A DNA stretch of 64,000 nt from Parabacteroides gordonii MS-1 = DSM 23371 (GTDB taxonomy: Bacteria > Bacteroidota > Bacteroidia > Bacteroidales > Tannerellaceae): positions 685,114-749,113 of the forward strand of contig NZ_KQ033920.1 of assembly GCF_000969825.1 (NCBI RefSeq), read 5' to 3'. The position numbers were made by a program, and so were the translations under genes. Within the stretch, counting starts at the first letter, position 1, and the number at the start of each line of letters is the position of its first letter. The notes under the pieces are model-generated. The model was not told the origin of the DNA, searched no databases, and worked only from the letters and a program-made list of their open reading frames with translations. Positions 6,173 to 57,683 of this stretch are shown piece by piece.

Positions 6173-6262
6173 TATTTTTGACCTAGGTGCTAAACATTTT
6201 CGACCTAGGTAATAAACGTTTTTGACCTTGGTGCAAAACCTTTTCTACCTAGGTCAAAAATA
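6173..6262. repeat. Phased array 1: four ACCTAGGT cores at 22-bp period
   Basis: The palindrome ACCTAGGT occurs at 6181, 6203, 6225 (as ACCTTGGT) and 6247, exactly 22 bp apart. The first three units are direct repeats (GACCTAGGT followed by an AT-rich spacer ending in TTTTC/T). The outer two form a perfect 16-bp inverted repeat, 6173-6188 against 6247-6262. No coding potential. Two helical turns between cores would put all cores on one DNA face. Confidence 0.9.
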
Positions 6263-6482
6263 TAAAAGGTAGGGAACAAATATATTGAAAGAAAGGAGGA
6301 AAAGCAAAGAAATAGCGGAGAAATATATCAGAACATAGATAATATAGGCATAAACTTTGCGTAAATAAAATTATTGTCTATATGTTATATGCTGAGTCCA
6401 TACATCAGGGAAGTTGGTCGCATGGAACATCCCCGTTGGACTTTCAGGATGTAGTGATTATAAAGAAGAAATAATACGACAT

Positions 6483-6527
6483 AAAATATCCCGATATTTC
6501 TCTATTGATAGAATACCGGGATATTTT
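6483..6527 (-). terminator. Terminator of the plug protein gene
   Basis: AAAATATCCCG (6483-6493) pairs with CGGGATATTTT (6517-6527). On the minus strand a T-rich tail follows. It begins 13 bases past the stop of the plug gene. Confidence 0.65.
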
Positions 6528-6539
6528 TATTTAGTAACT

Positions 6540-7814
6540 TTAAAATACCTGCATAGCATTCTTGACCGTTGTAACACCAATCAAACGATCGTATTGTGTG
6601 CCCATAGGACGGTAATAAACATAGATGCTATATTCGTTTTCTGTCTGGTAATAATTACCTTCTATAGGGCCGGTTTCGCCGACAGTGCTGCCATTCGGTA
6701 CGTAAAGGTACTGATAATTGTAGCTTCCCTGTTTAAGTAAGACGGCTTTCTCGTATTGATGAGTCTCAAAATTATATCCCATTTTGCTCTTTTCATCCAA
6801 AACGTTATGGAATAGTTCGCCATCCAGGTAAACGCTTCCGTCAAGGAAAGGATCGCAGGCCAACGCAAAATGCACGATGCAATAATCAGCTTCGGTATTT
6901 GGATCGTCGCAGCTGCTACAGCGGATAAAGAAACGGCCGTCCTGATCCTGATCGTATTGATAAGTCTGGTTATTGCGTTTATGGTCGGTCATCAACTCCA
7001 CATTGTAATAAGGATTATGATAGGAGATACTTTCAATATGCATTCCGTTATACTTCGTACTCAGAAACTCCATACGGCGATATTCATTCCCGGCAGAGAA
7101 GATCAGGTTGCGATTGTAAGTATAGGATATCTGGTTATCCTGAATCGACATCGGTTGCAAGCCGGATGCTGCATTGTCACGCCGGTTATCCTGATATACA
7201 TATATCTTTAAGTCTGTCTGGGGGTATGGGATCGGGAAGTTAGGATTGTTAATGGTGAAGCTCACCTGCTGATGCGTTTGGTTGGTATCGATATCCGTGT
7301 TCCCGCTGACGGATGCAGAAATATTGACCATCGGTTCCGCAACTGAGAAACAAGCGGTGAGAACAATCTGATCAGGAATATCCTCGTTATAGATCTGTAC
7401 GGCATAGTTTCCCGAAACCTTAAACTGAACATCGTCATTCGGCAACAGCAAATCATAGTTCGTGTACTGCGTCGTCGTGTTAATGGAATTGGCGAAGTCA
7501 TCTATTGTTAGTCCTTGAAAACCACTCATATACTGAATGGGAGAGAGGATGGACTTTTGCCAGTTCGCATCACAGTGAATGATGGAATAGGAATAGCGTA
7601 CGCCACCCTGTTCCAAAGCATCGAAGTTGATCTCGATCTGCTGATCGCTGTTCAACTCGATATAAGGCTCGGAAATAAACTCTCCGGCCACCTTCACCTG
7701 AAGGGTTTTTATCAGCTTGCTGTTAACGTCGGTAAAGTACGTTTGCTGAGCATTGGCCTGCATTACAGCGGCACAAAACAACAAAAATAGTAAACAATGT
7801 ACTCTCATTTTCAT
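6540..7814 (-). CDS. Type IX secretion plug protein (DUF5103)
   Basis: A 424-residue exported protein; the signal peptide ends near ANAQQ (residue 23). It matches the DUF5103 family, described in Flavobacterium as the plug of the type IX secretion translocon. Visible family features are the beta-sandwich start YFTDVNSKLIKTLQV, YSIIHCDANWQ, and the C-terminal NEYSIYVYYRPMGTQYDRLIG. Other T9SS genes are not in the window, so active secretion cannot be judged here. ATG 7808 (MRVHC) is an alternative start two codons later. Confidence 0.85.
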   Translation of the reverse strand: MKMRVHCLLFLLFCAAVMQANAQQTYFTDVNSKLIKTLQVKVAGEFISEPYIELNSDQQIEINFDALEQGGVRYSYSIIHCDANWQKSILSPIQYMSGFQGLTIDDFANSINTTTQYTNYDLLLPNDDVQFKVSGNYAVQIYNEDIPDQIVLTACFSVAEPMVNISASVSGNTDIDTNQTHQQVSFTINNPNFPIPYPQTDLKIYVYQDNRRDNAASGLQPMSIQDNQISYTYNRNLIFSAGNEYRRMEFLSTKYNGMHIESISYHNPYYNVELMTDHKRNNQTYQYDQDQDGRFFIRCSSCDDPNTEADYCIVHFALACDPFLDGSVYLDGELFHNVLDEKSKMGYNFETHQYEKAVLLKQGSYNYQYLYVPNGSTVGETGPIEGNYYQTENEYSIYVYYRPMGTQYDRLIGVTTVKNAMQVF

Positions 7815-7833
7815 GTATGTTTCTTTGACGGTG

Positions 7834-7841
7834 CAAAATTA
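7834..7841 (-). promoter_or_regulatory. Promoter -7 box for the plug gene
   Basis: Reads TAATTTTG on the minus strand, 20 bases before the ATG at 7814. Confidence 0.5.
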
Positions 7842-7897
7842 TGGAATTATTTCTTTAATTATTTCTTTATTCCTGCTTTAAAGCATAAAAATTTATG

Positions 7898-7905
7898 TAC
7901 TTTTG
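7898..7905 (+). promoter_or_regulatory. Promoter -7 box of the nqr operon
   Basis: TACTTTTG matches TAnnTTTG, 36 bases before the nqrA ATG. It makes the longer in-frame start at 7797 impossible on this transcript. Confidence 0.6.
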
Positions 7906-7940
7906 CGGGAAAATTACATATAAACAATTTTAGTTGTATC

Positions 7941-9290
7941 ATGGCAAATGTGATTAAGATTAAAAAGGGTTTAGACATTAATCTGAAGGGTAAAGCTTCG
8001 GATGTACTGCTAAACGGTCGGAAAAGTGATAGCTATGCTATCGTTCCCGATTATTATAACGGTATTATCCCCAAAGTTGTTGCCAAAGTAGGAGAAAAAG
8101 TCAAAGCCGGTTCTGTATTGATGATCGATAAGAACCGCCCGGAAATCAAGTTTGTTTCACCCGTAAGTGGTGAAGTAACTGCCGTAAACCGAGGAGAGAA
8201 GCGTAAAGTCCTTAGCATTGTTGTTAAGCCGGACACGCAGATCGAGTATGAAGATTTCGGCAAGAAAAATGTGTCTTCACTGAAGGGTGAAGAGGTAAAA
8301 GAAGCCCTGCTCAATAGCGGTATGTGGCCTTTTATCAAACAGCGTCCGTACGATATCGTAGCAACGCCGACAGATCAGCCACGCGATATTTTCGTGTCGG
8401 CCTTCTATTCTGCTCCGCTGGCTCCCGATTTCGACTTCATCCTGAAGGGACAGGAAGCTGATTTCCAGACTGGGCTGGATGCGTTGGCAAAACTTACCAG
8501 TGGTAAAGTTTATGTAGGCATCCGTAAAGGTTCTTCCGTGAATGTGAAGAGTGTTGAAACAGTAGAAGTTGAAGGACCGCATCCTGCAGGAAATGTAGGG
8601 GTGCAGATCAATCACATTAAGCCTGTTAATAAAGGCGAAGTGGTTTGGGTGGTTAATCCTGCCGACGTGATCGTTATCGGTCGCCTGTTTAACAAGGGTG
8701 TTGCTGATTTTAGCCGGATGGTTGCCATCACTGGTTCTGAAACAACAGAAAGAGGATACATCAAAACTATTTCCGGTTGTACGATCGACAGCCTGGTGGC
8801 TGGAAAGATCCTGGAAGGTAAAGAAGACCTGCGTATTATCAGCGGAAACGTGCTGACCGGTACAAAAGTTCGTAAAGACGACTATCTGGGAGCTTACGAC
8901 AACCAGATCACAGTGATCCCTGAAGGAGACAAAACTTATGATTTCTTCGGTTGGGCAACTCTTGGATTCGGTAAGTACAGCGTTAGCCATTCTTATTTCA
9001 CCTGGTTGGCTCCGAAAAGCAAAGAATATGTGATCGATGCCCGCATCAAGGGAGGTAAACGTGCGATGATCATGTCTAACGAATACGATAAAGTATTCCC
9101 GATGGACATTATCCCCGAATACCTGCTGAAAGCTATCATCGCTTTCGATATCGATAAAATGGAAAATCTGGGTATCTATGAAGTAGCTCCCGAAGATTTT
9201 GCACTTTGTGAATTTGTTGACACTTCCAAGATCGAACTGCAGAAGATCGTTCGTCAGGGTCTGGATCTGTTATACAAGGAAATGAATTAA
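7941..9290 (+). CDS. nqrA: Na+-translocating NADH:quinone reductase subunit A
   Basis: A 449-residue peripheral subunit of the sodium-pumping NQR complex, which moves electrons from NADH to quinone and exports Na+. It opens MANVIKIKKGLDINLKGKA, the usual NqrA start, and continues with the Rnf/Nqr N-terminal beta domain and the conserved HPAGNVGVQINHI segment. The frame is open from 7797, but ATG 7941 gives the family length and follows the -7 box. First gene of six in an uninterrupted operon, 22 bases before nqrB. Confidence 0.97.
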   Translation: MANVIKIKKGLDINLKGKASDVLLNGRKSDSYAIVPDYYNGIIPKVVAKVGEKVKAGSVLMIDKNRPEIKFVSPVSGEVTAVNRGEKRKVLSIVVKPDTQIEYEDFGKKNVSSLKGEEVKEALLNSGMWPFIKQRPYDIVATPTDQPRDIFVSAFYSAPLAPDFDFILKGQEADFQTGLDALAKLTSGKVYVGIRKGSSVNVKSVETVEVEGPHPAGNVGVQINHIKPVNKGEVVWVVNPADVIVIGRLFNKGVADFSRMVAITGSETTERGYIKTISGCTIDSLVAGKILEGKEDLRIISGNVLTGTKVRKDDYLGAYDNQITVIPEGDKTYDFFGWATLGFGKYSVSHSYFTWLAPKSKEYVIDARIKGGKRAMIMSNEYDKVFPMDIIPEYLLKAIIAFDIDKMENLGIYEVAPEDFALCEFVDTSKIELQKIVRQGLDLLYKEMN

Positions 9291-9312
9291 TAACATAAAA
9301 AATTAGAATACA

Positions 9313-10515
9313 TTGAAAGCGTTAAGGAATTACCTCGACAAGATTAAGCCTAACTTTGAGGAAGGCGGAAAGCTGGCGATGTTCGGTTCTGTATTCGAAG
9401 GTATCGAAACATTTTTATTTGTTCCGAGCACTACCTCGAAATCAGGCGTGCATATTCACGACTCTATCGATTCAAAGCGTACCATGACTGTGGTTATCAT
9501 CGCTTTGTTGCCTGCTTTGCTTTTTGGTATGTACAACGTCGGTTACCAACACAATCTGGCTGTTGGTGCTGATCCGGGATTTTTGATGACCTTCATCTTC
9601 GGTTTCCTGGCCGTACTGCCTAAAATTATTGTTTCGTATGTAGTAGGTCTGGGTATCGAGTTTGCTGTTGCCCAGGTGAAGAAAGAAGAAATTCAGGAAG
9701 GTTTCCTGGTTTCCGGTATATTAATCCCGATGATTGTTCCTATCGATACTCCACTGTGGATGATCGCTGTGGCTACTGCTTTTGCAGTTGTTTTTGCCAA
9801 GGAAGTATTTGGTGGTACAGGCTACAACGTATTTAACGTTGCATTGGTAACACGTGCATTCTTGTTCTTCGCATATCCGGCTGCCATGTCCGGCGACCAG
9901 GTATTCGTTCGCACAGCCGATACATTCGGACTGGGTGCCGGTACTGTAGTAGATGGTTTCTCAGGAGCAACTCCTCTGGGACAGGTTTCTATTGCCGGTA
10001 AAGACATGATCGGTTCATTCCAGACAGTAGACGTATTGGGTAACCCGTTGTCTACATGGGATATGTTCCTGGGATTGATTCCGGGTTCAATCGGTGAAAC
10101 ATCCGTATTAGCTATCCTGATCGGTGCCGTGATTTTGCTGTATACTCAGATCGCAAGCTGGAAAACAATGCTGTCTGTATTTGTAGGTGGTGCTTTAATG
10201 GCTGCTATCTTCAATATGATAGGAACTACCGTTGCTATGTGTGTATCTCCAGTCGATCACTTGTTCCTGGGTGGTTTTGCTTTTGGTGCCGTATTTATGG
10301 CTACCGACCCTGTAACATCTGCACGTACTGAAACTGGTAAATATATTTATGGATTCTTAGTGGGAGCTATGGCTATCATTATCCGTGCGCTGAACCCGGG
10401 TTATCCCGAAGGTATGATGCTCGCTATCCTGTTGATGAATGTATTTGCTCCGCTGATTGACTACTATGTGGTAGAAAGCAACATCACACGTCGTTTAAAG
10501 AGAGCAGTGAAGTAA
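9313..10515 (+). CDS. nqrB: Na+-translocating NADH:quinone reductase subunit B
   Basis: A 400-residue integral membrane subunit. The flavinylation motif SGATPLG has Thr220 as the expected covalent FMN site, and many transmembrane helices follow. The start is a TTG codon: the residues after it (KALRNYLDKIKPNFEEGG) match the conserved NqrB N terminus, whereas the next ATG at 9379 would remove them. A TTG start may lower its translation relative to neighbours. Confidence 0.97.
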   Translation: MKALRNYLDKIKPNFEEGGKLAMFGSVFEGIETFLFVPSTTSKSGVHIHDSIDSKRTMTVVIIALLPALLFGMYNVGYQHNLAVGADPGFLMTFIFGFLAVLPKIIVSYVVGLGIEFAVAQVKKEEIQEGFLVSGILIPMIVPIDTPLWMIAVATAFAVVFAKEVFGGTGYNVFNVALVTRAFLFFAYPAAMSGDQVFVRTADTFGLGAGTVVDGFSGATPLGQVSIAGKDMIGSFQTVDVLGNPLSTWDMFLGLIPGSIGETSVLAILIGAVILLYTQIASWKTMLSVFVGGALMAAIFNMIGTTVAMCVSPVDHLFLGGFAFGAVFMATDPVTSARTETGKYIYGFLVGAMAIIIRALNPGYPEGMMLAILLMNVFAPLIDYYVVESNITRRLKRAVK

Positions 10516-10537
10516 CATTATAATAAGAAGTAGAATT

Positions 10538-11203
10538 ATGAATAGAGATAGTAATGTATATACCGTAGTATATGCTTCTGTAATGGTTCTTCTGGTTGCT
10601 GTTGTGTTAGCTTTCACTTCGCAGTCGTTGAGAAGTTTCCAGAAAAAGAATGAAGATAACGATAAAAGACAACAGATCCTGCGTTCAATCAACGTATCGG
10701 TTCCGGCTAATGAAGCTGAAGCTAAATACAATGAATTGATCAAGGAGTCTTTCCTTGTTAATGAAAATGGAGAAAAAGTAGAAGGTGACGCATTTAGTGC
10801 AACACCCGAACAACATCCTGTATTCGTAGCCAGTGTAGATGGTAAGACCAAATATATCATGGCTCTTTCAGGTGCTGGTTTGTGGGGACCTCTGTGGGGC
10901 TACCTTTCTGTTGATGACAATAGAAATACAATTTATGGTACTGACTTCAGCCACCAGGGAGAAACTCCGGGATTGGGTGCTGAAATAGCGAAACCTCAGT
11001 TCAGTAATGAATTTAAAGGAAAGAAACTGTTTGTCAACGGTGAATTTAAATCTGTGGCTATCGTAAAACCGGGTAAGAGTGTTGCCGGTCAGGATTATGT
11101 GGACGGTATTTCCGGTGGTACGATCACAAGTCAGGGTGTCGATCACATGTTGTTCAATAGCCTGAGTGGTTATGTTAAGTTTTTAACCTCACAAAATCAG
11201 TAA
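10538..11203 (+). CDS. nqrC: Na+-translocating NADH:quinone reductase subunit C
   Basis: A 221-residue subunit with one N-terminal membrane helix and a periplasmic FMN-binding domain. The flavinylation site reads DGISGGTITS, with Thr195 as the likely FMN-bearing residue; the usual SGAT is SGGT here. FMN attachment needs an ApbE flavin transferase, and no apbE gene is in the window. It begins 22 bases after nqrB and ends 4 bases before nqrD. Confidence 0.96.
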   Translation: MNRDSNVYTVVYASVMVLLVAVVLAFTSQSLRSFQKKNEDNDKRQQILRSINVSVPANEAEAKYNELIKESFLVNENGEKVEGDAFSATPEQHPVFVASVDGKTKYIMALSGAGLWGPLWGYLSVDDNRNTIYGTDFSHQGETPGLGAEIAKPQFSNEFKGKKLFVNGEFKSVAIVKPGKSVAGQDYVDGISGGTITSQGVDHMLFNSLSGYVKFLTSQNQ

Positions 11204-11207
11204 GAAG

Positions 11208-11837
11208 ATGGGATTATTATCAAGTAAGAATAAAGAAGTATTGTTAGGCCCGTTGAGCACTAACAACCCTGTGATCGTACAGATGCTGGGTATCTGCTCT
11301 GCGCTGGCTGTAACATCGAAGCTTGAGCCGTCTATAGTTATGGGACTTTCCGTGACGGCTGTTGTGGCTTTTGCCAACGTGATTATTTCGTTGCTGCGTA
11401 ATACAATTCCTAACCGTATCCGTATTATCGTACAGTTGGTGGTTGTTGCTGCGCTGGTAACTATCGTAAGTGAAGTATTGAAAGCTTTTGCCTATGACGT
11501 AAATAAGCAGCTTTCCGTGTTCGTTGGTCTGATCATTACCAACTGTATCCTGATGGGACGTCTGGAAGCATTCGCCCTGGGTAACGGCCCGTGGGAGTCT
11601 TTCCTGGACGGTATCGGTAATGGTCTGGGATATGGTTTGATTCTGGTGATCGTAGGTTTCTTCCGCGAATTGCTGGGTTCAGGTACGTTACTTGGATTCC
11701 AGGTGATTCCGCAGGCATTCTACGACTTCGGCTATGTAAACAACGGTTTGATGATCCTGCCTCCGATGGCTTTGATCGTAATTGCCGTGATTATATGGGT
11801 TCACCGTTCTAAGAACAAAGAACTTCAAGAAAATTAA
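11208..11837 (+). CDS. nqrD: Na+-translocating NADH:quinone reductase subunit D
   Basis: A 209-residue membrane protein of the NqrDE/RnfAE family with about six helices. The start LLSSKNKEVLLGPLSTNNPV and NCILMGRLEAFALGNGPW are family hallmarks; the conserved Cys of TNCILMGR helps bind the iron centre formed with NqrE. Four bases separate it from nqrC, so translation is probably coupled. Confidence 0.97.
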   Translation: MGLLSSKNKEVLLGPLSTNNPVIVQMLGICSALAVTSKLEPSIVMGLSVTAVVAFANVIISLLRNTIPNRIRIIVQLVVVAALVTIVSEVLKAFAYDVNKQLSVFVGLIITNCILMGRLEAFALGNGPWESFLDGIGNGLGYGLILVIVGFFRELLGSGTLLGFQVIPQAFYDFGYVNNGLMILPPMALIVIAVIIWVHRSKNKELQEN

Positions 11838-11862
11838 TGCAAACTATTAAACGAATAATAGA

Positions 11863-12480
11863 ATGGAAGAATATTTAAGCACGTTTGTCCGCTCGATCTT
11901 CGTAGACAACATGATTTTCGCATACTATCTGGGTATGTGTTCTTTCCTGGCTGTTTCCAAGAACGTAAAGACTGCTTTAGGATTGGGTATGGCTGTAACG
12001 TTCATCCTGGTATGTACGTTGCCGATCAACTATATGCTCGAAAATTATATTTTGAAAGAAGGCGCCATGAGCTGGTTGGGCGCTGAATATGCAGGTGTGA
12101 ACCTGAGTTTCCTTTCACTGATCATCTTCATCGCCATCATTGCTTCATTTACGCAATTGGTTGAAATGGTCGTAGAAAAGTTCGCTCCGGCCCTGTATGC
12201 TTCTCTGGGTATCTTTTTGCCGCTTATCGCTGTAAACTGTGCTATCCTGGGTGGATCTCTGTTTATGCAGCAGAAAGCATTCTCTAATGTAGGGGTTGCT
12301 ACTGTATACGGTTTGGGTTCTGGTATCGGTTGGATGCTGGCTATCGTTGGTATGGCTGCTATCCGCGAAAAATTAGCTTATTCGGATATTCCAAAACCTT
12401 TGAAAGGTCTGGGTATCACCTTTATCATTACCGGTCTGATGGGTATGGCATTTATGTGCTTCTCCGGACTTAAGATCTAA
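11863..12480 (+). CDS. nqrE: Na+-translocating NADH:quinone reductase subunit E
   Basis: A 205-residue membrane protein homologous to NqrD and inserted in opposite topology in known complexes. FVDNMIFAYYLGMCSFLAVSK carries one conserved Cys and AVNCAILGGSLFM the other (motifs quoted from residues 14-34 and about 125-137). Twenty-five bases follow nqrD. Confidence 0.97.
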   Translation: MEEYLSTFVRSIFVDNMIFAYYLGMCSFLAVSKNVKTALGLGMAVTFILVCTLPINYMLENYILKEGAMSWLGAEYAGVNLSFLSLIIFIAIIASFTQLVEMVVEKFAPALYASLGIFLPLIAVNCAILGGSLFMQQKAFSNVGVATVYGLGSGIGWMLAIVGMAAIREKLAYSDIPKPLKGLGITFIITGLMGMAFMCFSGLKI

Positions 12481-12507
12481 GTATTAACGCATTAAACAAA
12501 AATAAAG

Positions 12508-13797: not shown

Positions 13798-13827
13798 ATA
13801 GAGGTTATTCACAAGCCTTAATAGATA

Positions 13828-13863
13828 AAAAGGGAAGAAATTATTTATTTCTTCCCTTTTTTT
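13828..13863 (+). terminator. Terminator of the nqr operon
   Basis: A perfect 14-bp stem (13828-13841 with 13847-13860), 5-base loop and following T-run, 30 bases after the nqrF stop. Confidence 0.9.
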
Positions 13864-14057
13864 GTTTTTAGTGTTTCCTTCATTGAAAATTAATATAAAA
13901 TTCATTGGTACAAATCTTTACGCTTTTTCAAAAGATGAAAATCAACTCCTTTTCTAAAGAAAAAATAGAGAAAATATACTTTTTCATGTAATATCGTGCA
14001 GCATTTCCCGTTGTTATTACATCTTAGCTAATATAGACATAAAAATTGAGCAAGATT

Positions 14058-14240
14058 ATGAAGTCGTTGATTCTATCTTTTTTCGCAGTAATATTAGGTT
14101 ATTCTCTTCTTTTTAACGAGAAAGAGGAGATTCAGCAGCCCATCCACGGTGTTGACAATTCTGTGTATATTCAAAAAACTGATACGCAGAGAATTGATTC
14201 TATCGAAATATATCGCGACAGAACTGCGTACGCGTTATAA
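14058..14240 (+). CDS. Small protein with N-terminal hydrophobic segment
   Basis: A 60-residue open frame that I do not recognise. It begins KSLILSFFAVILGYSLLF, a possible membrane anchor or signal peptide, then a polar tail with several acidic and charged residues. I took ATG 14058 over the TTG 12 bases earlier. No clear promoter or ribosome site; coding status rests on the signal-like start only. Confidence 0.35.
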   Translation: MKSLILSFFAVILGYSLLFNEKEEIQQPIHGVDNSVYIQKTDTQRIDSIEIYRDRTAYAL

Positions 14241-14266
14241 TATTTGTTTAAGAAAACTACTCTTAA

Positions 14267-14314: not shown

Positions 14315-14320
14315 TGTTTG
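14290..14320 (+). promoter_or_regulatory. Consensus Bacteroidetes promoter
   Basis: TTTG (14290-14293), a 19-bp spacer, then TATGTTTG (14313-14320) match the full -33/-7 consensus. It drives the small frame starting at 14347. Confidence 0.65.
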
Positions 14321-30722: not shown

Positions 30723-30815
30723 TTTATATAGACTACGTATTACCTTACTACTCATTACCGTCAAACCTATTATAAACTATGCCTTAAGTAATGACTTATA
30801 ATCTTAATTACCTTC

Positions 30816-30893
30816 GTCGTTAAGCTTTGCGACAGACGTCGTTAAGCTTAATGATGATGCTCGATAAGCTTAACGACCTTAGTCGTTAAGTGA
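30816..30893. repeat. Phased array 2: four GTCGTTAAGCTT-like cores at 22-bp period
   Basis: Cores begin at 30816, 30838, 30860 and 30882, exactly 22 bp apart. Units 1 and 2 are identical over 12 bases; unit 3 reads CTCGATAAGCTT and continues into AACGAC so it also matches in inverse orientation; unit 4 reads GTCGTTAAGTGA. Units 2 and 3 give a 13-bp inverted repeat (30838-30850 with 30865-30877). Confidence 0.88.
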
Positions 30894-30981
30894 ATTAAAC
30901 GTAATGTTTGACTTAGTAGGCTTATACCTTTCATCTAGTGTCCAGGTATGTAAGTGCTAGTAGTAAGTAATCTGAAACGAT

Positions 30982-31018
30982 AAAAGGTGAAGGGTTCAAA
31001 CCAACCCTTCACCTTTTT
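30982..31018. terminator. Bidirectional terminator-like hairpin, GGTGAAGGGTT family
   Basis: AAAAGGTGAAGGGTT (30982-30996) pairs perfectly with AACCCTTCACCTTTT (31003-31017) around a 6-base loop, with T-runs on both strands. Extra copies of the 11-base arm lie at 31023-31033 and (inverted) 31091-31101. It is placed to stop pepP transcripts from the right. Confidence 0.75.
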
Positions 31019-31120
31019 AAGCAACCCTTCACCTGTGTGAATGGTGCTTTATGTGTTGTTTTATAATGCATTAACCTTCATGAGGTGAATGGTGAAGGGT
31101 TTAATGCTTATTTTGCTATG

Positions 31121-32494
31121 TTATCTTAATGCTTCCACTTCATCCGTATGCAAAGGAATCTTCTTACCCAGCAGACGTGCGCCGTCTTCTGTGATCAGGT
31201 AATCTTCTTCGTTACGGATACCGCTGAAGTCTTTGTAAGTAACCAGTTTTTCGTAATTGATAAACTCGGTGAACTTGTTCTGGCTTCTCCACAGATCCAT
31301 CAGTTCAGGAATAAAGTAAACGCCCGGCTCGATAGTGAGAACGAAGCCCGGTTCCAGTTTGCGTCCCAGGCGGAGAGACTTACGGCCGAACTCTGTGCTT
31401 TTCGGCTGTCCGTCGTAACCGACATATACTTCACCCAGGTTTTCCATATCATGCACGTCGAGTCCCATCATATGTCCTAATCCGCAAGGCATGAACATGG
31501 CATGAGCACCGGCCTTTACAGCTTCCATCGGATCGCCTTTTACAAATCCAAGGTCTTTCAATCCTTCCATAATTACCTTACAAGACAGCTCGTAAACGTC
31601 GACGAAAGGAATGCCCGGACGAAGGGCGGCAACAGCAGCTTCGTGGGCAGCTACCTGAATATCATAAATATCTTTTTGGCGGGTTGTGAATCTGGCGTCG
31701 GCAGGAATGGTAGACGACATATCGCCCGCATAACCCATTTCCGTTTCTGCACCGGCATCCAGCAGTAACATATCGCCGCTCTTGATCATATTGCTATGAT
31801 CGTGGTTGTGCAACGTTTGTCCGTTGATTGTCGCAATAATAGGGAAGGAGAGCTGGTAGTTGTTAGCGTAAGCTACTTCGGCGACAGCTGCAGCCACTTC
31901 GCTTTCACGGATTCCCGGACGGACAGTACGCATGGCGGTCAGGTGCATATCGGCAGTAACCGTACAAGCCTTTTCGATCTCTGCAATTTCTTCCGCACTC
32001 TTATAATTACGTTGGTTCACAACACCCAGAATGAAAGGAACCGAAGGTTGTTCCGTACCCGGCACGACACCCAGCCACTGGAATAACTTGATCTGATGTT
32101 CGGCACGGTAAGTCGGCAGGTAATGAACACGTTGGCTCTTCTGCTGCGCCGCTTTCAGATACGTTTCGATTTCTTTGAACGGACGAACTTCCGTGATACC
32201 GGCTGCTTCGCTTTTCTCTTTCAGCGTAGGCTGGGTTCCCATCCATACGATTGCATCGATGGTCAGTTCGTCACCGAAGATGATTTCTTTGTTGTTGTCA
32301 ATATCGATGATAGCAGACAGCCCGGCATAGGGAAGTCCGAAGAAATACAAGAAAGTGGAATCCTGGCGGAAGTGGTATGTGTTATCTGCATAGTTCATAC
32401 CTGACTCATCATTTCCGAGGAAAAGTAACAAACCTGAACCGATAGTCTGTTTCAGTTTAGCCCTGCGGGCCATATACGTTTCTTTACTAAACAT
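31121..32494 (-). CDS. pepP: Aminopeptidase P family (Xaa-Pro) metallopeptidase
   Basis: A 457-residue pita-bread-fold enzyme that removes N-terminal residues ahead of proline. An N-terminal AMP_N domain (residues 1-145) precedes the catalytic domain. All five metal ligands are visible: Asp in LLDAGAE, Asp in AGDMSS, His in GLGHMMGLDVHD, Glu in TIEPGVYF and Glu in GIRNEEDY. Cytosolic and monocistronic with its own -7 box. Confidence 0.92.
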   Translation of the reverse strand: MFSKETYMARRAKLKQTIGSGLLLFLGNDESGMNYADNTYHFRQDSTFLYFFGLPYAGLSAIIDIDNNKEIIFGDELTIDAIVWMGTQPTLKEKSEAAGITEVRPFKEIETYLKAAQQKSQRVHYLPTYRAEHQIKLFQWLGVVPGTEQPSVPFILGVVNQRNYKSAEEIAEIEKACTVTADMHLTAMRTVRPGIRESEVAAAVAEVAYANNYQLSFPIIATINGQTLHNHDHSNMIKSGDMLLLDAGAETEMGYAGDMSSTIPADARFTTRQKDIYDIQVAAHEAAVAALRPGIPFVDVYELSCKVIMEGLKDLGFVKGDPMEAVKAGAHAMFMPCGLGHMMGLDVHDMENLGEVYVGYDGQPKSTEFGRKSLRLGRKLEPGFVLTIEPGVYFIPELMDLWRSQNKFTEFINYEKLVTYKDFSGIRNEEDYLITEDGARLLGKKIPLHTDEVEALR

Positions 32495-51713: not shown

Positions 51714-51714
51714 T

Positions 51715-52602
51715 ATGAACAGAACTGACATCCTAAACCAGATACAAAAAAACGTAGAACGTTTGTCGGCTTCCTGTTTGCCGGAGTATAAATATATACC
51801 GTTGCATCAGAAGCCGTCACCTTCCGTTCATTCGCTTCGGGAGATCATGCGACTGTTGCGGAAAGTGATCTTTCCGGGATTCTTCGGTTCTGAGCAGGAG
51901 GCACAGGTCGATTCCATACAATATTATACAGGAGTATATCTGGAGCAGATATATGACCTGTTGCAGGAACAGATATACAACGGATTATGCTTTGAAGTAG
52001 ACCGCTGCTGTGACTCTAAAGACCGTGCTTCAGAAATAGCGATCAGCTTTATCAATCAGATACCTCACATTAAATATCTGCTTTCAACGGACGTTAAAGC
52101 AATCCTGGACGGTGACCCTGCCGCTAAAAGCGTCAGTGAAATAATATTTTCTTATCCGGCCGTACGTGCAATCCTGTATCAGCGGGTAGCTCACGAATTA
52201 TTGAAACTCGGAGTACCCGTGCTGCCACGCATCATTACAGAAATGGCACATTCGGATACGGGGATCGATATTCATCCGGGGGCACAGATCGGCGAGTACT
52301 TCAGTATAGACCACGGCACCGGTATCGTGGTCGGCCAGACAGCTATCATTGGAAATCATGTACGTTTATATCAGGGAGTTACCTTGGGAGCCAAGAACTT
52401 CACCCTCGATGAAGAAGGACTGCCTATGGATATACCCCGGCATCCGATCCTCGAAGATTACGTTACCGTCTATTCCAATGCATCGATACTCGGACGGATC
52501 ACAATCGGAGAAGGTTCAGTGATAGGCGGTAACATCTGGTTAACCCATAGCGTACCGCCCAACTCCAAAGTACTTCAGTCGCGAGCCGTTGAAGACAAAT
52601 AA
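51715..52602 (+). CDS. cysE: Serine O-acetyltransferase
   Basis: A 295-residue enzyme making O-acetylserine for cysteine synthesis. The long helical N-terminal part and the left-handed beta helix are both visible: GIDIHPGAQIGEYFSIDHG, GIVVGQTAIIGNHVRLYQG and the Lys in GVTLGAK. It is of the longer EpsC-type. It begins one base after the Kelch gene stop, although the functions are unrelated. Confidence 0.93.
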   Translation: MNRTDILNQIQKNVERLSASCLPEYKYIPLHQKPSPSVHSLREIMRLLRKVIFPGFFGSEQEAQVDSIQYYTGVYLEQIYDLLQEQIYNGLCFEVDRCCDSKDRASEIAISFINQIPHIKYLLSTDVKAILDGDPAAKSVSEIIFSYPAVRAILYQRVAHELLKLGVPVLPRIITEMAHSDTGIDIHPGAQIGEYFSIDHGTGIVVGQTAIIGNHVRLYQGVTLGAKNFTLDEEGLPMDIPRHPILEDYVTVYSNASILGRITIGEGSVIGGNIWLTHSVPPNSKVLQSRAVEDK

Positions 52603-52654
52603 ATCTTTTTCATTTTTTAGCCCGAAACACTACTGTAAATTAAAGAGAAATACG

Positions 52655-52662
52655 TATGTTTG
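52655..52662 (+). promoter_or_regulatory. Promoter -7 box of the hydrogenase operon
   Basis: TATGTTTG matches TAnnTTTG. A small hairpin ACCCT-GAC-AGGGT follows at about 52669-52681 in the short leader. It shows that the TTG in-frame start at 52660 cannot be used. Confidence 0.6.
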
Positions 52663-52704
52663 CGTTACACCCTGACAGGGTCTAATACCTTAAATGCATA
52701 CGTG

Positions 52705-53103
52705 ATGAGCAAAGTAAAAACGTTAGATGACCTTCGGAAGATGCGCGAATCCTTACGCACCTCCCTCGATTTGCGCGAGAAAAGTAATAACCCCGAACAA
52801 ATGGTTCAGATCAAGGTCGCAATGGCCACCTGTGGTATAGCGGCAGGGGCTAAAGAAGTGATGAGCTACTTTATCGAAGCTCTCGACCGTGAACGTGTGG
52901 ATGCACTGGTTACCCAAACCGGCTGCATGGGATATTGCTATGCGGAGCCCACTGTCGAGATTACCGTTCCCGGAAAAGAACCGATCGTATTCGGTAGCGT
53001 CAATAAACCGAAAGTGGATGAGATCATTTCCTGTTATATCAAACAAGGTATTTTGGTGGACGGTATCATCCCCGTCAATTATAACTCGGTCGGCCCCGAA
53101 TAA
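52705..53103 (+). CDS. Small [2Fe-2S] thioredoxin-like ferredoxin subunit of hydrogenase
   Basis: A 132-residue protein with a thioredoxin-like [2Fe-2S] fold in which the cluster ligands appear as MATCGIAAG and TGCMGYCYAEP. It resembles the N-terminal extension of NuoF-type subunits and is often encoded first in [FeFe]-hydrogenase operons. It would shuttle electrons between NADH and the catalytic subunit. ATG 52705 is chosen; the frame opens at TTG 52660 inside the promoter. Confidence 0.88.
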   Translation: MSKVKTLDDLRKMRESLRTSLDLREKSNNPEQMVQIKVAMATCGIAAGAKEVMSYFIEALDRERVDALVTQTGCMGYCYAEPTVEITVPGKEPIVFGSVNKPKVDEIISCYIKQGILVDGIIPVNYNSVGPE

Positions 53104-53127
53104 CAAACCAATCCAAATTCTTACATA

Positions 53128-54921
53128 ATGGCACAATTTAGCAACTATATTCTGGTGTGCGGCGGGACAGGCTGTCGTGCATCACAAAGCGAACTTATAC
53201 TGGAAAACTTAAAGGAAGCGGTCAAACAAAACGGGTTACAGGAGAGCGTACAAGTGATCCGAACCGGTTGTTTCGGCTTCTGCGAGAAAGGCCCTGTAGT
53301 AAAGCTGATCCCGGATAATACATTTTATGTAGAAGTAAAACCGGAAGATGCGGACGATATAGTAAACGAGCATCTGGTAAAAGGACGCAAAGTAGAACGT
53401 TTACTCTATGTAAATCCGGAAACGAACGAGCAGATACTCGACTCCAAGCATATCAACTTCTATAAGAAACAGTTACGCATAGCCTTACGCAACTGCGGTT
53501 TCATCAATCCGGAAAACATCGACGAATACATCGCCCGTGACGGTTATATCGCCTTGGGGAAAGCCCTTACGGAAATGACTCCTGATGAAGTGATCAAAGA
53601 AATCATGGATAGCGGCCTTCGGGGCAGAGGGGGCGGCGGTTTCCCGACCGGACTCAAATGGCAGATTACCCGCAAGGTGCAGGCTCCGCAGAAATATGTA
53701 GTCTGTAATGCCGATGAAGGCGACCCCGGTGCATTCATGGATCGTTCTATCCTGGAAGGTGATCCGCATTCTATTGTTGAAGCGATGGCTATCAACGGAT
53801 ACTGCACCGGAGCAAGCAAAGGGCTTGTCTATATCCGTGCCGAATATCCGCTTGCCGTAGAACGATTGAAGATAGCCATCCAGCAGGCCAAGGAATACGG
53901 ACTTCTGGGTGAAAATATCTTCGGCACGGACTTTTCTTTTGATATTCAGATACGTTACGGAGCCGGAGCTTTCGTCTGCGGTGAAGAAACAGCCCTGATA
54001 CACAGTATGGAAGGACTTCGCGGAGAAGCAACCGTCAAGCCGCCGTTCCCCAGTGAATGCGGATATAAAGGTTGTCCGACTAACGTGAATAATGTGGAGA
54101 CCTATGCCAATATCCCCGTTATCCTGTTGAAAGGAGCCAAATGGTTCAGCAGTATAGGTACGGAAAAAAGCAAAGGGACGAAAGTATTTGCCTTGGCCGG
54201 AAAGGTCAACAATGTCGGCCTGATAGAAGTTCCGATGGGAACAACCCTTCGTGAAGTTATATTCGGCATCGGCGGAGGTATAAAAGACGGGAAGAAATTC
54301 AAAGCCGTACAGACCGGAGGGCCTTCGGGCGGCTGTCTAACGGAGAAACACCTCGACCTGCCTATCGACTATGATAACCTGATAGCAGCCGGTTCGATGA
54401 TGGGATCGGGGGGTATGATCGTTATGGACGAAGACGACTGTATGGTCGCTATGGCCAAGTTCTATCTCGATTTCACGGTAGAAGAGTCATGCGGCAAATG
54501 TGCTCCGTGCCGTATCGGAAACAAGCGTCTGCACGAAATGCTTCAAAAGATAACTACCGGAAGAGCCAATGTAGACGATCTCGACAAACTGCGTAACCTG
54601 GCAATGGTAATCAAAGACACCGCTCTCTGCGGGCTGGGGCAGACCTCGCCTAATCCCGTTCTTTCCACGCTGGATAACTTCTATGAGGAATACCTGGCTC
54701 ATGTCGACGAACAACGTTGCCCGTCGCACCAGTGCCGCGAACTTACCCAATACTTCATCAATCCGGAGAAATGTAAAGGATGCACCATGTGCGCCCGTAT
54801 CTGTCCGGTTCATGCCATCACCGGTAGCCGGAAAGTACCTCACACGATCGATTCGGAAGTATGTATCCGTTGCGGGTCATGTATAGAGAAATGTAAGTTC
54901 GATGCTATTTACGTACATTAA
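53128..54921 (+). CDS. hydB: NADH-binding (NuoF-like) hydrogenase subunit
   Basis: A 597-residue diaphorase subunit. Domains in order: a thioredoxin-like [2Fe-2S] domain (VCGGTGCRAS, GCFGFCEKGP; residues 8-100), the FMN/NADH domain with GLRGRGGGGFPTGLKW (about 155-175) and CNADEGDPGAFMDR, an SLBB domain, the CGKCAPCRIG [4Fe-4S] site (about 455), and two C-terminal ferredoxin clusters (CKGCTMCARICP, CIRCGSCIEKCK). This is the layout of HydB in bifurcating hydrogenases. It couples NAD(H) to HydA. Confidence 0.94.
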   Translation: MAQFSNYILVCGGTGCRASQSELILENLKEAVKQNGLQESVQVIRTGCFGFCEKGPVVKLIPDNTFYVEVKPEDADDIVNEHLVKGRKVERLLYVNPETNEQILDSKHINFYKKQLRIALRNCGFINPENIDEYIARDGYIALGKALTEMTPDEVIKEIMDSGLRGRGGGGFPTGLKWQITRKVQAPQKYVVCNADEGDPGAFMDRSILEGDPHSIVEAMAINGYCTGASKGLVYIRAEYPLAVERLKIAIQQAKEYGLLGENIFGTDFSFDIQIRYGAGAFVCGEETALIHSMEGLRGEATVKPPFPSECGYKGCPTNVNNVETYANIPVILLKGAKWFSSIGTEKSKGTKVFALAGKVNNVGLIEVPMGTTLREVIFGIGGGIKDGKKFKAVQTGGPSGGCLTEKHLDLPIDYDNLIAAGSMMGSGGMIVMDEDDCMVAMAKFYLDFTVEESCGKCAPCRIGNKRLHEMLQKITTGRANVDDLDKLRNLAMVIKDTALCGLGQTSPNPVLSTLDNFYEEYLAHVDEQRCPSHQCRELTQYFINPEKCKGCTMCARICPVHAITGSRKVPHTIDSEVCIRCGSCIEKCKFDAIYVH

Positions 54922-54962
54922 ATAAGTTGATAGTCGATAATGGACAGTTGACAGATAATCAT

Positions 54963-56753
54963 ATGGAAAATATAAAGCTAACAATAGATAACAGGGAAGT
55001 GGAAGTACCAAAAGGTATGACCGTTCTCGACGCAGCAAGGAGCATGGGTATTCGTATACCGACTCTTTGCCACATGAAACTCGAAGATCTGCATTATGAA
55101 AACAATCCCGGTGCCTGCCGTATCTGCGTGGTTGAAATAGAAGGCCGCCGCAACCTGGCTCCGTCCTGCAAGACGGAATGTACCGAAGGAATGGTCGTTA
55201 GAACCCACACGCCGCGGGTGATGAATGCCCGTAAGACCGTGATGGAACTGATTTTGTCGAACCATCCGGCCGGTTGCCTTACCTGTAGCAGCAACGGTTA
55301 CTGTGAACTTCAGACAATCGCCCACGACCTGGGCATACGGGAAATAAGATACCAGGGCGAACAGTCTACCTTTGAGATAGACCGTTCGCCGTCCATCGTA
55401 CGCAACATGAATAAATGTATCATGTGCCGCCGGTGCGAAACCATGTGCAACAGTATACAGACCGTCGGTGCACTGACCGCCGTCAACCGTGGCTTCAATG
55501 CTGCCGTTTCAACCGCTTTCGAGCGTGATATTGCGGGTAGTACCTGTTCTTATTGCGGACAATGCGTTTCGGTTTGTCCGGTAAATGCTTTGAGCGGACG
55601 CAATACCCAACAACCCGTACTGGATGCATTGGCCGACCCGACCAAGATCGTGATCGCCCAAACCGCCCCGGCAGTCCGTACGGCTCTCGGACGCGATTTC
55701 GGTTGCGAACCGGGAACACTGGTTACCGGAAAGATGGTATCTGCCCTTCGCCAGTTAGGTTTCGATTATGTGTTCGATACGGACTTTGCCGCCGACCTGA
55801 CTATAATGGAAGAGGGTACGGAGCTGTTGCAACGACTCAGTAAATACCTGTCGGGCGACGAGGAAGTGAAAATACCGATGATGACGAGCTGTTGCCCCGG
55901 TTGGGTCAGTTTCGTCGAGCAGCATTTCCCGGAATTGCGGGATAACCTTTCAACGGCCAAGAGCCCGCAACAAATGTTCGGTGCCATTGCCAAAAGCTAC
56001 TTTGCGGAGAAGCTGGGCGTCGATCGTAAGGATATTATCGTAGTATCCATCATGCCTTGTCTGGCTAAGAAGTATGAAGCCTGTCGTCCGGAGTTTGCCG
56101 AGGATGGTAATCCGGATGTAGACATTTCCATTTATACACGCGAACTGGCTCGCCTGATCCGTTACGCAAATATCAACTTCAACGAACTTCCCGATAGCGA
56201 CTTCGACCATCCGCTCGGTGAGTCGACCGGTGCCGGGGTGATCTTCGGAACAACGGGTGGGGTGATCGAAGCAGCCTGCCGTACGGCTTACGAACTATAT
56301 ACGAAGAAGCCGCTCGAAAAGATCGAGTTCAAGGAGTTGCGCGGCCTGGAAGGTATTCGTAGCGGAACGATCAACTTTGACGGCGTTCCGGTGAAGATCG
56401 GTATCGCTCACGGCCTGGGTAATGCCCGTAAACTGGTAGAGGAGGTGAAAAGTGGAAAATCACCTTACCATGTCATCGAGGTGATGGCTTGTCCGGGTGG
56501 CTGTATCGGCGGTGGAGGGCAGCCCTTCCATCAGGGCCGTATAGAGGTCTTACGTAAACGTGCTGCAGCCCTTTACAGCGAAGACGAGAGCAAGCCCCTT
56601 CGTAAGAGCCATGAAAACCCGTATATCCAGCAGTTATATAAAGAATATCTGGGTGAACCTTGCGGGCCGAAAGCACATAAGTTACTGCATACCCATTACT
56701 TCGACCGTAAAGAAGTGATCAATATGTTTCTGGAAACCGATAAAGACAAATAA
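54963..56753 (+). CDS. hydA: [FeFe] hydrogenase catalytic subunit, NAD-linked type
   Basis: A 596-residue enzyme that makes or uses H2. The N terminus carries a plant-type [2Fe-2S] domain (CHMKLEDLHYENNPGACRIC), the His-ligated cluster HPAGCLTCSSNGYC, and two [4Fe-4S] motifs (CIMCRRCETMC, CSYCGQCVSVCP). The H-cluster motifs are intact: MTSCCPGWV, IMPCLAKKYEA and VMACPGGCIGGGGQP. ATG 54963 starts MENIKLTIDN; the upstream in-frame ATG at 54927 is unlikely. The HydEFG maturases needed for the H cluster are not in the window. Confidence 0.96.
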   Translation: MENIKLTIDNREVEVPKGMTVLDAARSMGIRIPTLCHMKLEDLHYENNPGACRICVVEIEGRRNLAPSCKTECTEGMVVRTHTPRVMNARKTVMELILSNHPAGCLTCSSNGYCELQTIAHDLGIREIRYQGEQSTFEIDRSPSIVRNMNKCIMCRRCETMCNSIQTVGALTAVNRGFNAAVSTAFERDIAGSTCSYCGQCVSVCPVNALSGRNTQQPVLDALADPTKIVIAQTAPAVRTALGRDFGCEPGTLVTGKMVSALRQLGFDYVFDTDFAADLTIMEEGTELLQRLSKYLSGDEEVKIPMMTSCCPGWVSFVEQHFPELRDNLSTAKSPQQMFGAIAKSYFAEKLGVDRKDIIVVSIMPCLAKKYEACRPEFAEDGNPDVDISIYTRELARLIRYANINFNELPDSDFDHPLGESTGAGVIFGTTGGVIEAACRTAYELYTKKPLEKIEFKELRGLEGIRSGTINFDGVPVKIGIAHGLGNARKLVEEVKSGKSPYHVIEVMACPGGCIGGGGQPFHQGRIEVLRKRAAALYSEDESKPLRKSHENPYIQQLYKEYLGEPCGPKAHKLLHTHYFDRKEVINMFLETDKDK

Positions 56754-56755
56754 GC

Positions 56756-57244
56756 ATGGAAAAGATACATTTGCCCCAACCTAAAGTAAAGGAACTTCAT
56801 GCCGTATGCAAAGAGCATGACAATGATCCCGGCGAACTGATCAATATCCTGCACGCCGCACAGGAAATATTCGGTTATCTTCCCCGCGAAGTGCAGGAAA
56901 TGGTAGCGGCCGAACTGCATATTCCCGTGTCGCGGGTGTATGGTGTCGTTACCTTTTATTCCTTCTTTACCATGACTCCGAAAGGAAAATATCCTATTTC
57001 CGTCTGCCTGGGAACGGCCTGCTATGTGCGGGGAGCTGAAAAAGTATTGGATGAATTCCAACGCCAGCTGGAAATAAAAATAGGGGAGACAACCCCCGAC
57101 GGATTATTCTCCCTCGACTGTCTGCGTTGTGTGGGTGCCTGTGGACTGGCGCCCGTTGTAACGATCGGAGGAAAGGTGTACGGAAGAATTACCCCCGAAA
57201 AGGTGCGGGATATCTTGTCGGAATATTATATCCGGGAAGAATAA
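56756..57244 (+). CDS. hydC: NuoE-like hydrogenase subunit
   Basis: A 162-residue [2Fe-2S] subunit with a four-helix N terminus (LINILHAAQEIFGYLP) and a thioredoxin-like C terminus. The four ligands are in CLGTACYVRGAEK and CLRCVGACGLAP. It begins 2 bases after hydA and completes the HydABC-type complex. A strong terminator lies about 260 bases downstream. Confidence 0.94.
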   Translation: MEKIHLPQPKVKELHAVCKEHDNDPGELINILHAAQEIFGYLPREVQEMVAAELHIPVSRVYGVVTFYSFFTMTPKGKYPISVCLGTACYVRGAEKVLDEFQRQLEIKIGETTPDGLFSLDCLRCVGACGLAPVVTIGGKVYGRITPEKVRDILSEYYIREE

Positions 57245-57257
57245 AAGTTTTTTGCAA

Positions 57258-57327
57258 AAGTGCCTTCATGGGTTCATATGAGCTTCTTGGGTTTTGAATA
57301 TTATGGCATAACGATATGAAGGCACTT
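57258..57327. repeat. 12-bp inverted repeat after hydC
   Basis: AAGTGCCTTCAT (57258-57269) and ATGAAGGCACTT (57316-57327) pair perfectly around a 46-base loop; GCCTTCATG recurs at 57348-57355. Confidence 0.6.
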
Positions 57328-57378
57328 CTTTCGGCGGGTTCATTTCCGCCTTCATGCTGTGGCAGATGACAGATTGCG

Positions 57379-57404
57379 TTGCAGATAAAAGTAAGTATCT
57401 GCAA
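57379..57404. repeat. TTGCAGATA dyad in GCAGAT word family
   Basis: TTGCAGATA and TATCTGCAA pair perfectly. GCAGAT or its complement occurs also at 57362, 57423 (ATCTGT), 57447 and 57454. Confidence 0.55.
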
Positions 57405-57505
57405 TACCTTAATTCGTTTATTATCTGTTATATACGGCTAAAGGTGGCAGATGGCAGATAACTTTGAAAAACATTTGTGTAGAGAAGAATATAAGCTCAT
57501 ATTAT

Positions 57506-57555
57506 AGTAAAGGGAAGCAAGCCGTTAACAACTAGCTTGTTTCCCTTTACTTTTT
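57506..57555 (+). terminator. Terminator of the hydrogenase operon
   Basis: The stem is 57506-57521 with 57536-57551 (AGTAAAGGGAA core, one G-T pair), followed by a T-run. Confidence 0.8.
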
Positions 57556-57600
57556 ATCTCAAAGATGTATAGAAACTAATTTAAAAGTAGTAACAAAGAA

Positions 57601-57683
57601 AAGCCAGCCTGTACACCGTAATTCAACAAGGTGTACAGGCTGGCTTAGTATGGTGTACACTCTAATCGATTATCCTGTACACC
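57601..57683. repeat. Phased array 3: four CCTGTACACC cores at 22-bp period
   Basis: Cores start at 57608 (CCTGTACACC), 57630 (GGTGTACAGG, inverse), 57652 (GGTGTACAC, inverse) and 57674 (CCTGTACACC), exactly 22 bp apart. Units 1 and 2 lie in a perfect 17-bp hairpin (57601-57617 with 57630-57646); units 3 and 4 form an 8-bp dyad. No T-run follows, so this is not an ordinary terminator. Confidence 0.9.

Follow-up and report, generated by a model that had tools for sequence, protein, structure and literature searches.

Three short intergenic arrays lie in the window, by which we mean the whole analysed stretch of 64,000 nucleotides from Parabacteroides gordonii. Each consists of four palindromic units with a 22-bp period around a core of its own, and all three were confirmed where the original prediction had placed them. 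The first stands before a gene of the HU-HIG family and the other two in gaps between convergent genes.

Arrays and genes in the window

5500..6111, minus strand: HU-HIG gene, 203 aa (PF18291, E = 3.4e-31; TIGR01201), its start 61 bp from array 1
6173..6255, no strand assigned: array 1, four palindromic units, 22-bp period, core GACCTAGGT, within the HU-HIG gene's 5' leader
6277..6284, minus strand: TATATTTG, which fits the pattern TAnnTTTG and precedes array 1 by 21 bp when read toward the HU-HIG gene
30798..30891, no strand assigned: array 2, four palindromic units, 22-bp period, core GTCGTTAAGCTTAACGAC, in a convergent gene gap
57608..57683, no strand assigned: array 3, four TGTACA units, 22-bp period, palindromic core GGTGTACA, in a convergent gene gap

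A scan of the window for 8-mers recurring at periods of 12–60, adjacent copies differing at no more than one position, gave 22 as the sole hit period (arrays 1 and 2). Array 3 was detected when two mismatches were allowed; periods 12 and 44 then gave one hit each, and five shuffles scanned at this setting gave 0–3 raw hits.

HU and IHF are architectural DNA-binding proteins, and in HU-HIG proteins (PF18291) the HU fold is joined to a further part, which is a wHTH, an Ig or a glycine-rich one; the family was reportedly the subject of a study by Burroughs and co-workers in 2017. The protein encoded beside array 1 belongs by score to this family (PF18291, TIGR01201; HU/IHF superfamily), with 108.3 bits against PF18291 and a curated Pfam cut-off of 26.2. 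Its predicted model (mean pLDDT 88, pTM 0.55) comprises an HU part (residues 34–119) and a winged helix (137–196) and gave fold matches to HU/IHF chains and to winged-helix chains, with the C-terminal part matching AspA of pNOB8. The protein is thus predicted to combine an HU fold with a C-terminal winged helix. TAnnTTTG is presumably the Bacteroidetes −7 box, in which case TATATTTG at 6277..6284 would be a putative promoter element. Matches to PF18291 number 14–54 in six array-bearing Parabacteroides genomes and 1–2 in five genomes of other families; P. gordonii has 54, a figure that takes in ordinary HU.

A class of intergenic arrays with a common period

Four-copy arrays were sought in 1.264 Mb of the P. 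gordonii genome at periods of 10–119 with two mismatches allowed. Intergenic DNA held 29 at period 22 and 13 at period 23 (42 in all); every other period gave at most four, the four being at 46, twice 23. Coding sequence of the same genome held none at 22 and one at 23, and shuffled intergenic DNA gave 0 at 22, 0.7 at 23 and 12.7 summed over all periods. A geometry-defined intergenic class with many unrelated words, as originally proposed, therefore stands far above shuffled sequence (29 versus 0 and 13 versus 0.7), and the genome-wide comparison of periods suggested at the time has 22 and 23 dominating, with no other above four. The stipulation of exactly 22 bp does not survive: array periods span 21–23 bp, 23 being common and 21 also found. 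In 2.06 Mb from six genomes of the genus, scanned with three- or four-copy criteria, 63 arrays have period 22 and 23 have period 23, other periods from 15 to 30 giving at most six each; 69 of these 86 arrays have three (31) or four (38) copies. Outside the genus, 75 other loci (1.26 Mb) yielded eight intergenic arrays at 22, five at 21 and five at 14, a mild excess of period 22. The class of 22-bp palindromic arrays is genuine.

Palindromy exceeds the 95% point of a period-keeping null in 39 of 61 arrays, whereas none of the 47 tandem repeats with a different period in the same DNA does so. Conservation of the array unit peaks at the dyad, and the spacer is free to vary. Across three orthologous arrays, 174 of 203 site positions are conserved as against 231 of 314 in the flanks; in one of the three, array 193430, conservation falls below that of its own flanks, which counts against reading the arrays as protein-binding sites. 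These observations bear on the proposal that the arrays are neutral palindromic minisatellites, with slippage and template switching homogenizing the copies, the ancestral period inherited and the words left to drift. Words do vary between species, units occur in both orientations (by eye) and one hairpin stem is altered on both sides between the close relatives G049 and G036 (by eye), all as such a process might produce. It predicts neither a dyad-centred profile nor sites more conserved than their flanks, nor the link to HU-HIG leaders described below, and we consider it most improbable.

Arrays lie in convergent gaps more often than expected (21 observed, 10.7 expected) and in divergent gaps less often (10 observed, 19.1 expected), so that the class as a whole is not operator-like, a point against the explanation that we favour below. 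The enrichment at gene 3' ends that had been anticipated thus holds as a convergent excess only, the HU-HIG-tied arrays lying at 5' ends. Terminators were considered as well: of the 51 arrays that have a gene end facing them, 17 are preceded within 150 bp by a terminator-like hairpin. Such hairpins are present in 257 of 401 comparable gaps, and 14 arrays overlap with a hairpin of this kind. These counts say nothing clear about a terminator role.

Leader arrays of HU-HIG genes

Association of the arrays with one DNA-binding protein, also raised in the original prediction, was borne out for the HU-HIG family. In sampled DNA of genomes G000 and G049, counting arrays within 150 bp upstream of a gene, all five HU-HIG genes of 180–300 aa have one, at a distance of 48–88 bp. 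The figures for other lengths are 1/1 (128 aa), 1/7 (141–170 aa) and 0/8 (at most 110 aa). The background is 30 of 1203 genes, giving p = 4e-9 for all 13 HU-HIG genes of at least 120 aa. For P. distasonis, B. finegoldii and Phocaeicola massiliensis, public records place arrays before eight of nine HU-HIG genes of about 200 residues and before none of ten genes of a shorter HU class (p = 1e-4); by the scan, L375 is the one of the nine with no leader array, and none was found at a relative's locus, L086. Of the 14 HU-HIG genes encoding about 200 residues in the two main tests, 13 are preceded by a leader array, such arrays being nearly absent from the shorter HU classes. We define a proposed HU-HIG operator array as one that lies within 250 bp upstream of such a gene and would be bound by its cognate protein; array 1 of the window has the required position. 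The majority of arrays have no HU-HIG gene adjoining, which, like the two loci L375 and L086, also counts against our favoured explanation.

Words of the leader arrays differ between paralogues. Since arrays stand before 13 of the 14 long genes, each word is likely to be the private docking site of one sister protein. The word GACCTAGG is common to L083 and the window gene despite 33% protein identity, and a 47%-identical paralogue has a different word; on these sequences, whole-protein identity does not simply predict the word, a further point against it.

A TAnnTTTG motif ends within 60 bp before the array in 8 of 18 leader arrays; among the other arrays, one side out of 108 has it. If these −7-like boxes are promoters, the leader arrays are transcribed, and their units fold into hairpins; the arrays might act as RNA, with tandem hairpins controlling the HU-HIG mRNA and the dispersed copies likewise serving as RNA elements. 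Paired double changes are in slight excess (26 versus 16 expected). However, the wobble asymmetry expected of RNA is absent (175 G–T versus 200 A–C mismatches; heterogeneity χ2 62.0, 61 df), and one-sided changes make up 289 of the 338 deviations. No Rfam family was found in the window or the tested arrays: the window gave nothing above gathering, only eukaryotic-type chance matches with E up to 5, and 11 relative loci gave a single match at E ≤ 0.5, to FopS (55.2 bits, gathering 56), which lies beside an element and outside any array. RNA structure is disfavoured by the missing wobble bias and the mostly one-sided changes, and there is little chance that it accounts for the arrays.

Dispersed copies and the proposed role of the arrays

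The words of the window recur elsewhere. The TTAAGCTTAACGAC word of array 2 is common to the leader array of an HU-HIG gene at C1:592691 (score 44; null maximum 12.5), and the word of array 3 to that of a 128-aa HU-HIG gene at C1:723739 (score 24). Array 2 is enclosed in a larger element:

30744..31130, no strand assigned: larger dispersed element enclosing array 2, with own-genome matches of query 445–736 and 685–831

This element contains GGTGAAGGGTT words in both direct and inverted orientation. Words had been thought locus-specific, and the arrays free of kinship with mobile repeats, neither of which is supported: dispersed relatives were found for 26 of 42 sampled own-genome arrays, and 15 of the 42 share sequence with other loci past the array limits. 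At one locus the array is present in G000 but the site is empty in both G036 and G049; at another it is G049 that has the array and G000 the empty site. The word of one P. distasonis leader has a match in a dispersed array of genome G016. Leader words of P. gordonii other than the window's have a dispersed relative in sampled DNA for three of six tested; none was found there for those of C1:344710 and C1:415556, which weighs against the reading that we favour below.

Such dispersal would be expected if the arrays were the core of small non-autonomous MITE- or BIME-like repeats, spread by an enzyme that reads geometry, with HU-HIG leaders as preferred landing sites or as the source. Composite elements with inverted arms, the filled and empty loci and a slot occupied by different families agree with this. 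Yet the spreading enzyme was not found, clear target-site duplication was not seen, and mobility does not predict a private array before every long HU-HIG gene. Extended inverted flanks exceed the 99% null in only 5 of 61 arrays and were rejected as a general rule. The Y1 transposase family (PF01797) numbers none in array-rich G016 and one each in G000 and G049; the sole G000 gene has no array adjoining and is flanked by another palindrome, so that mobilization of the REP/RAYT kind is disfavoured. Viral contigs contained neither the CTATCAC 18-mer nor HU-HIG relatives, and one composite element was not found in phage and plasmid collections. We regard mobility as an unlikely explanation of the class, though less so than the RNA and minisatellite accounts.

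The description of the BrickBuilt MITE of Porphyromonas gingivalis (PMC4596501) gives intergenic, dispersed 23-nt tandem repeats with leader and tail flanks, filled and empty sites between strains, and one word in one species at 1–22.8 copies with IS5-like TIRs. The Parabacteroides arrays are likewise intergenic, tandem and dispersed with filled and empty loci, but have many words, usually three or four copies and a link to HU-HIG, and those of the window have a period of 22 bp rather than 23, the latter occurring elsewhere in the same genome. The BrickBuilt IS5-like TIR GAGACCTTTGCA shows no excess in the window (four matches with at most two mismatches, 4.3 expected by chance). BIME/REP elements with RAYT form dispersed extragenic palindromic arrays of alternating orientation, often between convergent genes. 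Our arrays share these features, and differ in the lack of a Y1 transposase in array-rich G016 and the separation of the G000 gene from arrays. A literature search by repeat features, not by HU-HIG, found no published description of these arrays.

The explanation that we favour, at a probability of roughly 0.7, is that each array serves one HU-HIG paralogue as a private binding array, and that this paralogue thereby represses the gene encoding it and docks on dispersed copies of the word as well. An array, as a rule made up of four palindromic sites, each some 16 bp long and stepped by 21–23 bp, would be occupied by HU-HIG dimers tiled side by side; a dimer footprint of about 22 bp would let the protein set the pitch and its specificity the word. 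Leader arrays that lie shortly past a −7-like box may serve as roadblock operators through which the paralogue represses its own gene. Dispersed arrays, some apparently carried within MITE-like elements, could be extra docking sites, whether as a regulon, in chromosome organization or as parasitic decoys. Multi-site autoregulatory operators and winged-helix centromere arrays similarly have phased palindromic sites beside the DNA-binding protein's own gene, as a dimer reading would imply here, but not the many paralogues, different words per genome and dispersed copies to which binding is proposed in our case. The interpretation in the original prediction is partly supported.

More tentatively, and at somewhat less than even odds, we suggest a Bacteroidales addressing code in which a genome has dozens of HU-HIG paralogues and every one of them reads a private word through a quadruple array of 21–23-bp pitch, in its own leader and in arrays dispersed across the chromosome. 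Word and reader would diversify as orthogonal sets and build locus-specific intergenic nucleoprotein complexes, a bacterial counterpart of zinc-finger expansions. To our knowledge, no binding sites or private operator arrays have been described for the HU-HIG family, and we know of no sites assigned to its large expansion in gut Bacteroidetes. An array in a gene's own leader supplies a predicted target word for each such paralogue, making dozens of HU-HIG proteins of unknown role directly testable as regulators, and paired sets of proteins and words offer a route to the recognition code of the HU-type fold. If true, the HU-HIG link would explain some members of a class of intergenic repeats that is dense in this genome, with 42 four-copy arrays in 1.264 Mb.

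A further repeat was noted beside array 3:

57264..57470, no strand assigned: stretch adjoining array 3, with GGCAGAT-type words repeated (by eye)

In genome G004 the slot matching this stretch holds a CTATCAC word, again as judged by eye.

Intergenic arrays with periods of 22 and 23 bp

The original prediction described three arrays in the window, each of four palindromic units at 22 bp, and these are present as described. The features concerned are as follows.

6174-6254, array 1
30798-30891, array 2
57608-57683, array 3
5500-6111 (-), gene of the HU-HIG family (PF18291), 203 aa, start 61 bp from array 1
57264-57470 and 30984-31130, arms of repeated words (also at the fetched loci L340, L341, L345, L150 and L151)

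A scan of period and copy number against shuffled intergenic DNA likewise bore out an excess, which is strong and found at 23 as well as 22 bp, with other periods far rarer. In 1.264 Mb of the own genome, G000 (1.2 Mb of stretches plus the window; genome 6.79 Mb), 29 four-copy intergenic arrays were found at period 22 and 13 at period 23, with no more than four at every other period from 10 to 119. The same scan gave 0 and 1, respectively, in coding sequence and 0 and 0.7 in shuffled intergenic DNA. Judged by one protein, the nearest named relatives of this genome are Parabacteroides goldsteinii (96%) and P. faecis (95%), and its genus is accordingly taken as Parabacteroides. A wider set of 2.06 Mb, which adds 400 kb of G049 and 100 kb each of G012, G013, G014 and G016, contains 61 four-copy intergenic arrays, four others (coding or in short gaps) being left out. 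All five of these relatives carry such arrays, with mostly different words (palindromic core sequences). One convincing array, in G023, was located in a further sample of 400 kb (G026, G023, G021, G025 and G028, from other families, with 20 kb of G011); period-23 matches in the AT-rich G028 look like chance. Named loci beyond the five nearest Parabacteroides show a mild excess. The arrays are over-represented in convergent gaps (21 versus 10.7 expected, p = 0.0007) and under-represented in divergent gaps (10 versus 19.1, p = 0.02), with 30 versus 35.2 in tandem gaps; these expectations total 65, the four dropped arrays being counted in.

Under a null that preserves the tandem period, 39 of the 61 arrays exceed the 95% point for palindromy, compared with none of the 47 tandem repeats whose period differs (Fisher p = 6e-14). 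Up to 8 bp from the dyad, unit-to-unit identity is about 0.6-0.7, with a dip at the dyad; it drops to 0.34-0.42 at 11 bp, a profile from which the unit reads as a site of about 16 bp and a free spacer of 6-7 bp. Among 338 deviating pairs, 289 carry a one-sided change and 49 a two-sided one (27 expected under independence), and 26 of these 49 pair, versus 16 expected (p = 0.006). Wobble bias is absent from the array mismatches (175 G-T versus 200 A-C; heterogeneity χ2 of 62.0 with 61 degrees of freedom). Since the changes are mostly one-sided and free of wobble bias, it is the word that is conserved rather than RNA pairing as such, with a weak pairing signal persisting. Over three arrays common to G000 and G049, identical columns number 174/203 in sites, 47/69 in spacers and 231/314 in flanks (site versus flank, p = 0.001), although the array at 193430 runs opposite to the other two (flanks 102/111, sites 55/62).

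HU-HIG genes and their leader arrays

The gene adjoining array 1 encodes an HU-HIG protein. Its AlphaFold2 model (33 sequences; mean pLDDT 88, pTM 0.55) has an HU fold and a winged helix; the best fold matches were 4fmr of Bacteroides vulgatus and HU and IHF chains, a part of 60-70 residues matched AspA and MarR/ArsR-type chains, and a sequence profile recovered IHF and HU. Among the matches listed, PF18291 numbers 54 in G000, 53 in G049, 23 in G016, 17 in G012 and 14 each in G013 and G014, and one or two in each of five genomes of other families, counts that take in ordinary HU. A profile of the window protein gave 29 matches among open frames of the sampled DNA, one of which, a duplicate of the window gene, was excluded afterwards.

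Across the contiguous stretches sampled from G000 and G049, a leader array (within 150 bp upstream) precedes all five HU-HIG genes of 180-300 aa, at 48-88 bp, the single gene of 128 aa, one of seven of 141-170 aa and none of eight of up to 110 aa, against a background of 30 in 1203 genes. Loci collected for purposes other than this comparison include three with leader arrays (L082, L083 and L165), one with an array of period 21 (L085, by eye) and one with none (L086); L083 and L165 entered through array similarity, the gene playing no part in their selection.

An independent test used tblastn of the window protein against PLSDB, which gave ten places in nine records (P. distasonis, two; B. finegoldii, four; Phocaeicola massiliensis, three), the best place per record being taken. 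These records, labelled plasmids, look like pieces of draft chromosomes. Eight of the nine have a four-copy array upstream, ending 48-183 bp from the gene, with period 22 in seven and 21 in one; in the ninth, L375, inspection by eye shows ACTATAGT twice, at a distance of 22 bp, too little to pass the threshold. In a control set of 10 records, selected by relationship to a 149-aa G000 HU protein, none had a leader array; three of the 10 matches spanned less than 80% of the query. At L384, L385, L387 and L388 this shorter HU class often shares its cassette with genes for a DUF4248 protein, a 'smalltalk' protein and an N-acetylmuramoyl-L-alanine amidase.

The motif TAnnTTTG, which we take to be the Bacteroidetes -7 box, occurs within 60 bp ahead of the leader array in 8 of 18 leaders chosen as already array-bearing, at 13-28 bp in all eight, versus 1 of 108 sides of other arrays.

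Correspondence of words and a proposed mechanism

Array 2 matches the array in the leader of an HU-HIG gene, C1:592691 (G000 coordinate), with a score of 44, and array 3 the one preceding the 128-aa gene at C1:723739 with a score of 24, the null maximum being 12.5. Four of six G000 leader words (the window's and those of C1:592691, C1:1708424 and C1:723739) have dispersed relatives in the sampled DNA, where none was found for C1:344710 and C1:415556; the leader word of L370 (P. distasonis) matches a dispersed array of G016 (score 31.5). Between species, the word is retained by C1:723739 and L165, whose proteins are 80% identical, and by L085 and L372 at 56% (by eye). Counter to a simple rule that word follows identity, the L083 and window leaders have GACCTAGG in common at 33% identity, and a paralogue 47% identical has a different word.

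Each palindrome is likely to be bound by an HU-HIG dimer, with four dimers probably tiling the array; an array directly past the promoter would then be likely to repress the gene. The pitch would be set by protein size and the word by binding specificity, which would account for one geometry with many words. Candidate roles for the dispersed arrays are a regulon, chromosome docking or parasites that have copied a binding array. The BrickBuilt element of P. gingivalis (PMC4596501) is possibly related to the dispersed arrays; its IS5-type TIR shows no excess within the 64-kb window. G000 has a single Y1 transposase gene (C1:1554424-1554762) with CCGTCGGTTTTAACCGACGG-type palindromes on both sides, an arrangement that resembles a conventional RAYT and its REP sequences.

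Word families and composite elements

The 61 arrays fall into 40 word clusters, of which 13 contain at least two arrays. Words had been thought locus-specific, which does not hold: 26 of 42 G000 arrays have relatives elsewhere in the sampled G000 DNA, and for 15 of the 26 the similarity reaches beyond the array. The array 1 word recurs at further G000 loci and, in altered form, in G011, G012 and G013.

Some arrays lie in the middle of composite elements flanked by inverted arms. In G000, an 18-mer from the CTATCAC arm occurs exactly 11 times, at 10 places, and 21 times when up to two mismatches are allowed (reversed-pattern control, 0); modules mix, this arm being found with two different arrays. 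One G000 array locus is empty in G036 and G049, where the adjoining terminator-like hairpin and start codon are continuous, and a composite of about 640 bp present in G049 is absent from G000. At the array 3 locus G000, G049 and G036 have a TGTACA array, and G004 has another word at period 23, about equally distant from the same gene.

Repeated 7- to 11-bp words, direct and inverted (GGCAGAT, GGTGAAGG, CTATCAC), form the arms beside some arrays, and the arm architecture seems constant even though one locus has different words in different species. In G002, an almost perfect array of seven 22-bp copies (L127:229-395; TTCCATGCCGATGGAATTGGAG) is possibly a recent expansion. At L357:1779-1861 (-), beside a composite element in G049, the Rfam sRNA family FopS (RF04319) is matched with 55.2 bits, just below its gathering score of 56.
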